Source of the DNA: an uncultured Methanomassiliicoccales archaeon
GTDB taxonomy: Archaea; Thermoplasmatota; Thermoplasmata; Methanomassiliicoccales; Methanomethylophilaceae
Length of the DNA stretch: 32,147 nt
Direction of reading: 5' to 3'
Assembly (NCBI GenBank): GCA_949298875.1
Contig: CASFYI010000022.1
Location: 1-32,147, forward strand
Position numbers and translations under genes: made by a program. This document shows, piece by piece, positions 5,975 through 9,132 of this stretch; the first letter of the stretch is position 1; each line of letters opens with the position of its first letter. The notes beneath the pieces were generated by a model. The model saw only the letters and a list, made by a program, of their open reading frames with translations, was not told where the DNA came from and ran no database searches.

Positions 5975-7135
5975 TCATGATAAGGGCGCTGGGATCCGGG
6001 ATCGCTGGCTGACCACCCTGGGATTGACGAGCTTCCCGACGAGGGCGTCCCTGACGAACATGTTTATGCCCGAGTAGTCGCCGTCCGAATCCAGGAGCCT
6101 CTGGATCTCATCGGCTATGTGGGTGAAAACCTCGCGGAAGATCCTGCATGAGTCCCCGTCGGTGTTCTCGAGACCGACCTCGTGGTAGGCGTCCATGCTG
6201 CATCCGCCGTTGCAGTACCTGTAGATCGGGCAGGATGCGCACTTCTCCCTGCGGGCGACGGAGCCCGCCAGGATCCTGCGGAATCCCTCCGAGTGGAAGG
6301 CCTCGTCGAGGCTGGAGATGGAGTTCACATTGCCCATGCAGAACTCGGGCGGGCAGGCCTTGGCGCACGGGTAGATCGAGCCGTCGGGATTGACGCAGAT
6401 CCATTTGGTGAGACAGGACGTGTGGGCGCAGTCGGAGGGGGTGGGATCGCCCAGATAGTTGAGGACGTAGAGGTAGTGCGGGATCAGGGGGACCTTGCTG
6501 TCGGCGTCGTGGAGCCAGGTGTCGAAGGCCTCTATGCTGCCCCTGATGTACTCGTCCGCATCCGGGACGGTGCCGTTGCATCTGGCGCATCCCGCAGGGA
6601 TCACCGGGGACATGGAGATGTTGGTCCCCCTGTCGCGGTAGTACTCGTAGATCTCCCTCTGCTTCAGCGCCGTCTCGCGGGAGATGGTGGCGCTGACGGA
6701 ATACTTGTTCTCCTTGTCGGAGAGCATCGATATGGCTTTCTCTGGATCCAGCTCCCTCAGGACGCTGTTGTAGGGTCCCTCGCACGACACCCCGACGTTG
6801 ATCATCTTCTCGCGGCAGTACGCCATGAGACGGCGGTTGAGCAGCGTCCCGTTGGTCTGTATGGTGTTCCCCACACGGAAGGAGGACTTGCCGAAATGCT
6901 TCTCCTCCAGCTCGATGGCCTTCTTGTAGAACGACATCGGGACGGTGAGCGGCTCGCCCCCGTGCCATATGAACCAGACCGCCTGATACTCGGAGGCGAC
7001 CATGCCCATGAGGCGGTCGAGGGTCTCCAGGCTCATCTCCCCCCGGACACGCTCGTCCGGGGTATGATAGCAATGGCTGCAAGATTCGTTGCAGAAAAGG
7101 GTCGGTTTGATGACGACCGATATGTACGGCTTCAT
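5975..7135 (-). CDS. Radical SAM/SPASM peptide-maturase-like enzyme
   Basis: A 386-residue radical SAM enzyme. The [4Fe-4S]-SAM motif is C15-X3-C19-X2-C22 (LFCNESCSHCYHT), with the SAM-binding GGEP at about 59-62. A complete SPASM domain follows: C241-X10-G-X4-C257, C261 and C266, then the canonical C299-X2-C302-X5-C308-X3-C312 (CASCPIYRYCNGGC) and a late C330. This is the architecture of anaerobic sulfatase maturases and RiPP maturases (thioether or C-C bond formation). No sulfatase is in the window. A cysteine-rich peptide gene ends 17 nt upstream on the same strand, which makes a peptide-modifying role the best reading. ATG 7135 is chosen because it starts the family core; an open frame further upstream overlaps the peptide gene. 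Confidence 0.88.
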   Translation of the reverse strand: MKPYISVVIKPTLFCNESCSHCYHTPDERVRGEMSLETLDRLMGMVASEYQAVWFIWHGGEPLTVPMSFYKKAIELEEKHFGKSSFRVGNTIQTNGTLLNRRLMAYCREKMINVGVSCEGPYNSVLRELDPEKAISMLSDKENKYSVSATISRETALKQREIYEYYRDRGTNISMSPVIPAGCARCNGTVPDADEYIRGSIEAFDTWLHDADSKVPLIPHYLYVLNYLGDPTPSDCAHTSCLTKWICVNPDGSIYPCAKACPPEFCMGNVNSISSLDEAFHSEGFRRILAGSVARREKCASCPIYRYCNGGCSMDAYHEVGLENTDGDSCRIFREVFTHIADEIQRLLDSDGDYSGINMFVRDALVGKLVNPRVVSQRSRIPAPLS

Positions 7136-7152
7136 GGCCGGCTTCCGCCGGC

Positions 7153-7461
7153 TCAGAAGGGCCAGTAGGTCCAGACGCCGTTGAATCCGTTGGTGGCGTA
7201 GCAGCAGCAGATGCAGCAGACCACGACGCAACCGACGACGCAGGCGTGCCAGCCCATGCTGTTGCAGTATCCCTTCTCGGTGCAGCAGCAGTAGTCGCAC
7301 TTGGAATCTCCGCCGTGGTCCTCGTCGGCCGCCTTGTCGAAGCGCTCGTCGTGGGTGTGATCCTGGGGGAGTCCCTCCATCGCGAACGCGATGAAAGCCG
7401 ATGGGGACTGGCTCTCGTAAATTGCTGTCAGGTTGTCTACGGATTCCGCGTCGTAAGCCAT
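7153..7461 (-). CDS. Cysteine-rich peptide, candidate RiPP precursor
   Basis: A 102-residue protein with a sharp two-part build. Residues 1-54 have no cysteine and are acidic with His and Asp (leader-like). Residues 55-87 hold all 12 cysteines (55, 58-60, 66, 74, 78, 82, 83, 85-87), including CCC runs and a CCICCC block, and the tail is aromatic and glycine-rich (GFNGVWTYWPF). A Shine-Dalgarno-like GGTAGGTGA lies just upstream of ATG 7461, and a TATA-like element is about 55 nt upstream. The SPASM radical SAM gene follows after 17 nt. Leader/core contrast plus an adjacent maturase is the standard sign of a ribosomally made, post-translationally modified peptide. I recognise no known family (it lacks the SCIFF pattern). 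Alternatives are a metal-binding protein or a small membrane-associated protein, since VVGCVVVCCICCC is very hydrophobic. Confidence 0.72.
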   Translation of the reverse strand: MAYDAESVDNLTAIYESQSPSAFIAFAMEGLPQDHTHDERFDKAADEDHGGDSKCDYCCCTEKGYCNSMGWHACVVGCVVVCCICCCYATNGFNGVWTYWPF

Positions 7462-7512
7462 TGCTCATTCACCTACCACTGCTGGCTGGTTGAGGTTCCG
7501 AACCTATATTCC

Positions 7513-7528
7513 GTATTTATGACTTTTC
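7513..7528 (-). promoter_or_regulatory. TATA/BRE-like promoter of the Cys-rich peptide operon
   Basis: On the minus strand CGAAAAG (BRE-like) is followed by TCATAAATAC (TATA-like), about 52-67 nt upstream of ATG 7461. That leaves room for a leader of roughly 30 nt with the GGTAGGTGA ribosome binding site. Confidence 0.4.
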
Positions 7529-7589
7529 GGAACGGCCGTCGATGCGACAGCCCAGCGGAACCCTTATCCGCGCGATACGTTCACGGTGC

Positions 7590-8138
7590 ATGGACGACAG
7601 GACGCTCGGATACATCCTGATCGCCGCGGTCTTCGCCGTGGCGCTGATCGCCTCGTTCCTCCTGGCCCGGCGGATCCCGCCAAAGGAGCGAGACGGATCG
7701 CAGGGACGCACGGCATCCGTCCACCACACGCATACGGGCGAACGACATGTTCGGATACACCACCCCAGCTTACGGAAGGCTCTCCCCGGCCGACAACCGC
7801 ACCTACCGCAGATACTACTGCGAGGGATGCCATCAGCTCAGGGACGGCTACGGCCTCACCGGGACCGGGACGGTGAACTACGACATGACGTTCAACACCA
7901 TCCTCCTCGAGGGGCTGGTCTGCGACTGCCCCGACTTCGGGCCCACGACCCGCAGGATCTGCGTGCTCGACTCCCCCAAGGCGGACTCCAGACTCATGCA
8001 CGAGATGGCCGCCTACACACTCATACTCACGAAATGGGAGCTTTACGACGACGAGACCGATATGCCGTCGATGAAGACGAAGCTCATCTCCCTGACGCTG
8101 AACCGCGCCATACAGAAGGCAGTCTCCGAGTTCCCTGA
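7590..8138 (+). CDS. Possible small membrane protein (uncertain frame end)
   Basis: ATG 7590 opens a frame starting MDDRTLGYILIAAVFAVALI, a convincing single membrane helix (about residues 8-27) followed by a basic stretch. A TATA-like CCCTTATCC sits about 25 nt before the ATG, in the leaderless spacing seen elsewhere here. After about 50 codons the frame runs into the DUF5685-type gene in another phase and stays open to 8138; that part is low-complexity and looks like an out-of-frame shadow. Either a short membrane protein overlaps its neighbour or the helix is fortuitous. The function is unknown. Confidence 0.3.
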   Translation: MDDRTLGYILIAAVFAVALIASFLLARRIPPKERDGSQGRTASVHHTHTGERHVRIHHPSLRKALPGRQPHLPQILLRGMPSAQGRLRPHRDRDGELRHDVQHHPPRGAGLRLPRLRAHDPQDLRARLPQGGLQTHARDGRLHTHTHEMGALRRRDRYAVDEDEAHLPDAEPRHTEGSLRVP

Positions 8139-9132
8139 GTACGACAGGATGGTCGGTGAGGGATTCATGCGCCTGCGCGACATGGAGCTGGCCGGATGCA
8201 GGGACGCAATCTCGATGGGCAGGGAGTTCGGCAGGGGCCTGACGGGACCGCTCGAGGGCATCGCCGGCGACTTCTACACGGAGGATCTGGGAGATGTGTT
8301 CACCCAGCTGACCGCAGCGGTGTACGTCATGGATGCGATCGACGACCTGGACGACGACTTCATGGACGGTACCTACAACCCTCTGCTCCCCGAGACCGGC
8401 TACGTCAACGCGCGCACCTTGGTCGACAGGGATGTCATGAGGTTCACATCCCTGGTGTCCGAAGCGGTCGGATCCCTCCAGTCCGCCTACTCCAGGGTGC
8501 GCCCGTCCATGCGCGGGAACGTCTCCCTCTGCGACAACATCGTCTACTTCGGGATACCGGAATCGGCCAAGCGCGTCATAATGGGCGATGCGAAGGCCAA
8601 GGCCAGCGTCAAGAACATCCTGTCGAACAGGAAGGACAGGCTGGCATCGGAACGATCCGGCGGGGTCGAAGTCCGAGCACACGTCCAGGGAGTCCCTGGG
8701 CTCCGAATGCCTGGAGCACACGCCTCCGCTCCACGACCTGCAACTGCCACAGCATCCCGGACGGTATCTCCCGCATCCGTCCTCCGGCCCCGTCGGCCTG
8801 GATTCCGGCATGCACACCCATATGTCATCCGAATGCGCGCAGAGGCGGCACGTGCGGCACTTCCCGTAGCTCTCGTCCATGGACGGACATATGCGGAAGG
8901 ACCTTATCGGTTTCCGTCGGCCGTGAGACGGTCCAGCATCCATGACATCCCGCGCGCCATCCTGCCGGCCGGATCGGTGAAGTGGTTGCCGGGATTCATC
9001 TCCAGCACCACATCGGACACGTTCGGATCGCCCCCATACGCCGTCCTGACGGATCTTATCGCATCGCCTACCGATGCCATCACAGGGTTCCTCGCCTTCT
9101 CCTCCTTGGTCCCGAGGCTCAGGTACACGTAG
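7747..9132 (+). CDS. DUF5685-type protein with read-through tail
   Basis: The first 300 or so residues look like a DUF5685-type protein: an N-terminal MFGYTTPAYGRLS, a Cys pair motif YYCEGCHQL (about 24-32), a further CDC near 59-61, then long helices with an acidic AIDDLDDDF segment near 197-205 and CDNIVYFG near 262-269. The family has no established function. The expected end is near codon 302 (about 8655), but no stop occurs there. The frame continues to a TAG at 9130-9132 through sequence that is exactly antisense to a Cys-rich ORF and to the alpha/beta hydrolase, so the last 150 or so residues are probably not a real domain. A CGA codon stands at 8653-8655, where a stop would be expected. 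Confidence 0.7.
   Translation: MFGYTTPAYGRLSPADNRTYRRYYCEGCHQLRDGYGLTGTGTVNYDMTFNTILLEGLVCDCPDFGPTTRRICVLDSPKADSRLMHEMAAYTLILTKWELYDDETDMPSMKTKLISLTLNRAIQKAVSEFPEYDRMVGEGFMRLRDMELAGCRDAISMGREFGRGLTGPLEGIAGDFYTEDLGDVFTQLTAAVYVMDAIDDLDDDFMDGTYNPLLPETGYVNARTLVDRDVMRFTSLVSEAVGSLQSAYSRVRPSMRGNVSLCDNIVYFGIPESAKRVIMGDAKAKASVKNILSNRKDRLASERSGGVEVRAHVQGVPGLRMPGAHASAPRPATATASRTVSPASVLRPRRPGFRHAHPYVIRMRAEAARAALPVALVHGRTYAEGPYRFPSAVRRSSIHDIPRAILPAGSVKWLPGFISSTTSDTFGSPPYAVLTDLIASPTDAITGFLAFSSLVPRLRYT
8647..8880 (-). CDS. Small cysteine-rich protein without a local stop codon
   Basis: From ATG 8880 the minus strand encodes about 77 residues with paired cysteines: CRTCRLC (8-14), C23, C36, CCGSC (43-47), C55 and C68 before SDFDPAG. 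The pattern resembles small metal-binding or cysteine-cluster proteins with a C-X2-C...C-X(n)-C-SDF ending. It starts 23 nt after the alpha/beta hydrolase stop on the same strand. The frame has no stop at the natural end; codon 78 is CGA (8647-8649) and the frame stays open far into the antisense of the DUF5685-type gene. The coordinates given here stop at the likely end of the real protein. No Shine-Dalgarno is visible. The function is unknown. Confidence 0.45.

Follow-up and report, generated by a model that had tools for sequence, protein, structure and literature searches.

The window analysed here, the whole 32,147-nucleotide stretch of a contig from an uncultured archaeon of the family Methanomethylophilaceae (order Methanomassiliicoccales), contains what looks like a new peptide-modification system of three genes: one for a Cys-rich, precursor-like peptide (7153..7461, minus strand, 102 aa), one for a SPASM radical SAM enzyme, hereafter the maturase (5975..7135, minus strand, 386 aa), and one, divergent from the peptide, for a DUF5685 protein (7747..8655, plus strand, about 302 aa in relatives). 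We consider it somewhat likelier than otherwise that this is a vertically inherited, three-part locus that would give rise to a cross-linked, membrane-embedded Cys-rich peptide, possibly prenylated too. The basis for this reading is gene order, co-inheritance, purifying selection, invariant residues, cluster motifs and a hydrophobic stretch within the peptide. We found nothing in the literature on RiPPs of Methanomassiliicoccales, or on the function of DUF5685.

The peptide gene, its ATG preceded by an SD-like GGTGA, encodes an N-terminal leader followed by a Cys-rich core. The preliminary description of a 102-residue product with a Cys-free, acidic N-terminal half and 12 cysteines within residues 55–87 was accurate in every detail checked: the first half is acidic, residues 1–54 contain no Cys, the cysteines occupy positions 55, 58–60, 66, 74, 78, 82, 83 and 85–87, and the C-terminal end reads ...GFNGVWTYWPF. 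Library profile searches matched the peptide to no NCBIfam or Pfam family. In an alignment of 16 diverse sequences, the residues Y15, Q18, C55, C59, C60, C66, C86, Y88, W100 and P101 were invariant, comprising a leader motif Y..Q (Y15/Q18) and only five of the 12 cysteines. A sixth, C85, is conserved at 92% among the homologues, while the number and position of the non-invariant cysteines vary freely, giving totals of 8 to 14 per peptide. Around residues 69–87, between C66 and C86, lies a Cys-flanked hydrophobic stretch of ~19 aa, and the best 19-aa mean hydropathy was at least 1.6 in 49 of 49 peptides (median 2.1), values typical of a membrane segment. On either side of this stretch, C-x-Y-x-CC...C and CC-x-Y are invariant in all genera, and we think it likely that the peptide resides in the membrane. 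The count of 12 cysteines given previously was thus correct, but the invariance of only five of them, and the putative membrane-spanning character of the region that holds them, had gone unnoticed. Most homologues end in W-P-F, with N, Y or L as the final residue in a few; W and P are invariant, placing an invariant Trp third from the C-terminus. Across ten pairs, peptide dN/dS ranged from 0.04 to 0.33, indicating purifying selection that includes the core.

Similarity searches with the maturase and the peptide were run against 100 relatives. A homologous peptide was encoded 3–53 nt upstream of the maturase at all 49 loci of close maturase homologues, which span 48 genomes and 10 genera of one family, Methanomethylophilaceae, and are not independent events. 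In genera g2, g3, g5 and g6, a plain similarity search missed the peptide, and inspection of the sequence ahead of the maturase revealed a divergent Cys-rich ORF with the same layout; two far more distant SPASM proteins that we examined (G067 and G094) had no such peptide. The occurrence of the peptide upstream of all 49 close maturases, together with purifying selection, argues that the pairing is not due to chance, and bears out the precursor–maturase pair with conserved co-occurrence in related Methanomassiliicoccales that had been proposed earlier. It is also the arrangement by which a RiPP is recognised, a short precursor gene conserved beside the gene for a peptide-modifying enzyme. SPASM enzymes tightly linked to a peptide gene usually modify that peptide, and the maturase here very probably does so. 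Among 293 Thermoplasmatota genomes, no such peptide was found outside Methanomethylophilaceae, and the peptide and DUF5685 were confined to an identical set of 25 genomes, a count from which one sub-threshold DUF5685 fragment (in G106) was left out. Two near-complete genomes (G031 and G043) that lack one component lack all three. The peptide–maturase–DUF5685 locus is single copy and near-universal in the family, and the maturase tree keeps genera together, with weak support for the large genus g1; vertical inheritance is the best reading of its history.

This pattern of inheritance bears on the possibility that the product is a RiPP secreted as an antibiotic or signal, with export and cleavage left to enzymes from other loci. 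The leader/core layout and the linkage to a maturase would suit such a role, and a hairpin between the two genes (described below) fits the unequal expression expected of a precursor and its enzyme. However, the conserved neighbours include no gene for transport, proteolysis or immunity, the locus is near-universal in the family as a vertically inherited single copy, its genera stay together in the maturase tree, the core is under purifying selection, and the C-terminus has stayed conserved instead of diversifying. We regard a secreted product as very unlikely. Single-copy inheritance by descent, a conserved core and the lack of export genes point instead to a cell component held in the membrane, and the earlier suggestion that export and leader removal would rely on other loci therefore finds no support in a near-universal locus of this kind without transporter or protease.

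Between the peptide stop and the maturase start, the window has only a short inverted repeat, GCCGGC-GGAA-GCCGGC (7133..7152, minus strand). In 11 genus members, the same position is occupied by a longer hairpin, of 28 nt, that has five covarying pairs and a GCATCGT loop, the GCATCG core of which is invariant. Its covariation score was 0.422, compared with 0.178 in shuffles (0 of 500 as high), for a set that was chosen for having the hairpin and is biased towards it; slid versions showed nothing similar. Whole-genome scans placed every strong match in the peptide–maturase gap only, in a single copy per genome, and the hairpin had no Rfam match. Hairpin-bearing gaps include those of loci L025, L011 and L024. 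One possible role for the hairpin is to control how much peptide is made relative to enzyme.

The maturase gene, described previously as a full SPASM radical SAM gene 17 nt further on along the same strand, is indeed complete, with its ATG at 7135, 17 nt past the peptide stop, and Pfam matches to Radical_SAM (6e-11) and SPASM (3e-7). The protein contains the motifs CX3CX2C, CX10GX4C and CX2CX5CX3C and the last SPASM Cys, so that both CX3CX2C and the seven-Cys motif characteristic of SPASM radical SAM proteins are present. Its radical SAM domain begins almost at residue 1, leaving no room for an N-terminal RRE, and a family-specific C-terminal extension is conserved past the end of known profiles (N358, F360–D363, G367 and P372). 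The homologues keep the radical SAM and SPASM cysteines, and CX3CX2C is absent from a single one, in G032, the one genome representing genus g3, where the maturase (locus L092, about 7802–8905 in the orientation read) has lost the motif and the peptide, its invariant residues intact, and DUF5685 remain. This homologue is a candidate natural pseudoenzyme, and it suggests that one lineage has retained the peptide where radical chemistry is lost, which counts against a cross-linked product.

The nearest maturase profiles (DynA, anSME, TIGR04083 and GrrM) all scored far under their cut-offs. The locus resembles SCIFF/ranthipeptide systems (TIGR03973 with TIGR03974; PapB, NF047865) in that a short Cys-rich peptide adjoins a SPASM radical SAM enzyme, and in the lineage-wide conservation of the gene pair, as for SCIFF in Clostridia. 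In contrast to those systems, the peptide here has no SCIFF match, its cysteines are split by a membrane-type stretch, it ends in a W-P-F tail and it is partnered by DUF5685, while the maturase, lacking the N-terminal RRE, scored 67.5 bits against a TIGR03974 cut-off of 425 and 62.9 against 340 for NF047865 (PapB), upholding the earlier view that the pair does not fit the SCIFF pattern. Scores against sactipeptide/CcpM families were lower still (44.6 against a cut-off of 500 for TIGR04068, 35.1 against 625 for NF045574 and 36.7 against 525 for TIGR04463). The cyclophane maturases DynA, GrrM/OscB and AmcB are among the closest enzyme profiles, and the invariant Trp of the peptide followed by two residues (W-P-F/N/Y/L) may correspond to the three-residue aromatic motif of their precursors, but scores were again far under the cut-offs (164.8 against 450, 105.7 against 310 and 92.9 against 425, respectively), and the peptide is Cys-rich and of membrane type. 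We know of no co-occurrence of these three systems with DUF5685. SCIFF, CcpM and the other curated maturase families were rejected on these scores.

A different assignment would make the SPASM protein an anaerobic sulfatase maturase (anSME), with an unrelated small gene beside it. The second-best NCBIfam profile of the maturase is sulfatase_rSAM (145 bits), and its best PDB match, and best relative of solved structure, is anSMEcpe (4k36, 95 bits). The former score is far under the cut-off of 349, however, the anSME catalytic Asp that follows the SPASM Cys (YPCD) is replaced throughout the maturase family (YPC[A/S/G]K), and a PF00884 sulfatase was found in none of the 25 genus genomes searched, that of the window included, in line with the earlier remark that no sulfatase was adjacent. 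In two relatives outside the family (G070 and G073), unlike in the genus, sulfatases lie within a few kb of the SPASM matches. The replaced Asp and the lack of sulfatases refute an anSME for the genus, and we hold this assignment to be extremely improbable. The preliminary description had named maturases without the peptide, paired with sulfatases, as a finding that would overturn it; instead, 49 of 49 close maturases had the peptide and 0 of 25 genomes a sulfatase.

Clustering of ORFs around the locus identified DUF5685 as the one further family kept across all 10 genera. At almost every locus it adjoins the peptide gene, although the outer neighbours differ, and it is retained even where it has moved, 3.7 kb off in G033 and about 20 kb in G014. 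DUF5685 belongs to the peptide–maturase unit; the preliminary description, which had noted no adjacent sulfatase, transporter or protease, missed this gene (from 7747 onwards, plus strand) as the third part. The window copy scored 126.4 bits against PF18937 (Pfam gathering score 26.7), and no relative was found in viral contigs. At 8655–9132 (plus strand), the DUF5685 frame continues in the window where the stop of its relatives is missing, a possible stop loss or assembly error. Two small ORFs lie nearby. One, with a single membrane helix (MDDRTLGYILIAAVFAVALIASFLLARR..; about 7590–7746, plus strand), is just ahead of DUF5685 and was left out of the parts of the locus, being present only in the window and G021; the other encodes a Cys-rich zinc-ribbon-like protein (..YGKCRTCRLCAHSDDIWVC..; about 8640–8890, minus strand), is convergent to DUF5685 and is conserved in roughly five of the family's genera.

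Five Asp residues of DUF5685 (D101, D105, D196, D200 and D204), forming two Asp-rich motifs (D101–D105 and D196–D204), are invariant in 31 of 31 sequences, some of them bacterial. C25xxC28 and C72 are likewise invariant in this set. The best 50 PDB matches of a first AlphaFold2 model (pLDDT 61, pTM 0.65) were all isoprenoid synthases, as were the best ten of a second, poorer model (pLDDT 46). Confidence in these models is low to moderate and Foldseek E-values were weak (0.015 and 0.04 at best, >0.01), making an isoprenoid-synthase fold likely rather than shown, although we predict it with considerable confidence. In sequence comparisons, hmmsearch scores of DUF5685 against polyprenyl or squalene/phytoene synthases equalled those of shuffled decoys, and a PDB sequence search gave no match; hhalign with shallow alignments could not join the two known synthase families to each other, and this profile test was therefore without power.

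ComQ and PalQ act on a Trp at or near the C-terminus and have the fold predicted for DUF5685 (PMC5331326, PMC10853753, PMC13290415), and the prenylated Trp of ComX is 3rd or 4th from the C-terminus (PMC5331326). The locus is similar to these trans-IDS-like systems in two respects: the peptide is small and has Trp as its third-last residue, and its neighbour is a predicted isoprenoid-synthase-fold protein that contains a first Asp-rich motif. Trp prenyltransferases, however, are reported to have a conserved Gln that directly precedes the second Asp-rich motif (PMC13290415), whereas DUF5685 has a full second motif with an invariant Tyr (Y193-x-x-D196, 31 of 31 sequences); its partners in other lineages carry Cys, not Trp, near the C-terminus, and a SPASM enzyme is present here. 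Since the marker Gln is absent from all 31 sequences, we do not assign DUF5685 as a Trp prenyltransferase of the ComQ/PalQ type.

For bacterial DUF5685, the sample comprised G081 plus four plasmid records. The gene after DUF5685 in G081 and in two plasmid records from Clostridia codes for a J-domain protein whose Cys-rich C-terminus has Cys as its last residue (J-domain/TPR proteins at L106:5935-6570, L107:5897-6508 and L108, about 7101–7820), and in Nonomuraea and Nocardia (Actinobacteria) the DUF5685 protein itself carries a Cys-rich C-terminal tail (L175:6001-7179, 25 Cys in all; L176:6001-7008, 12 Cys in all). These five bacterial cases, though few, and the archaeal locus suggest a partnership of DUF5685 with Cys-rich tails that may be fused to it (in cis) or carried by another protein (in trans). 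Unlike in Clostridia and Actinobacteria, the tail in Methanomethylophilaceae is on a separate, leader-bearing peptide, and a SPASM enzyme is added. Neither the clostridial nor the actinobacterial tails have a terminal Trp; should DUF5685 be a transferase, Cys would therefore be a more general candidate than Trp for the acceptor.

The same cysteines could serve another end, with those on both sides of a membrane helix binding metal or an Fe-S cluster, the SPASM enzyme modifying only a non-Cys residue (e.g. in the W-P-F tail), and DUF5685 acting as a scaffold or metallochaperone. Such a metal-binding membrane peptide would account for the invariant Cys motifs flanking the hydrophobic stretch, for the CxxC and third Cys of DUF5685, and for the persistence of the G032 peptide beside an enzyme without the cluster motif, and if DUF5685 were an enzyme acting on the tail, its fusion to that substrate in Actinobacteria would be surprising. 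Against this, the remaining cysteines drift freely in number and position (8–14 per peptide), and closely linked SPASM enzymes mostly modify the adjacent peptide; we consider metal binding unlikely.

Under the cross-linked-peptide reading that we prefer, the peptide would be made with an N-terminal leader that the SPASM enzyme, having no RRE, probably recognises directly through Y..Q. The enzyme would cross-link the Cys-rich, putatively membrane-spanning C-terminal half by radical chemistry, the most likely acceptors being the invariant C55/C59/C60/C66/C86, as thioethers, or alternatively through C–C links at the invariant aromatic tail W100-P-F. We see even chances that the peptide cysteines are modification sites, and as only five of 12 are invariant, most need not be modified. 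DUF5685 would bind this Cys-rich tail or act on it, perhaps by attaching a prenyl group, although its being a prenyltransferase of the peptide is a tentative and rather unlikely assignment. The finished peptide would be a cell component that stays in the membrane.

A bolder extension is that the archaeal peptide is doubly modified, with cross-links added by the SPASM enzyme and prenyl by DUF5685, and that DUF5685 modifies Cys-rich C-terminal tails widely among prokaryotes, those of bacterial J-domain chaperones included. We think this distinctly unlikely. Eukaryotic DnaJ proteins are farnesylated, and if the extension were true, DUF5685 acting on J-domain tails would offer a prokaryotic parallel.

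In conclusion, a whole family of gut methanogens gains what looks like a conserved peptide-modification system, undescribed in the family libraries searched, and in archaea, Clostridia and Actinobacteria a widespread family, DUF5685, is linked with tails rich in Cys. The conserved residues identified here provide clear mutants for tests of both chemistry and purpose and, if DUF5685 transfers prenyl groups, lipidation of prokaryotic housekeeping proteins at Cys or Trp would become directly testable.
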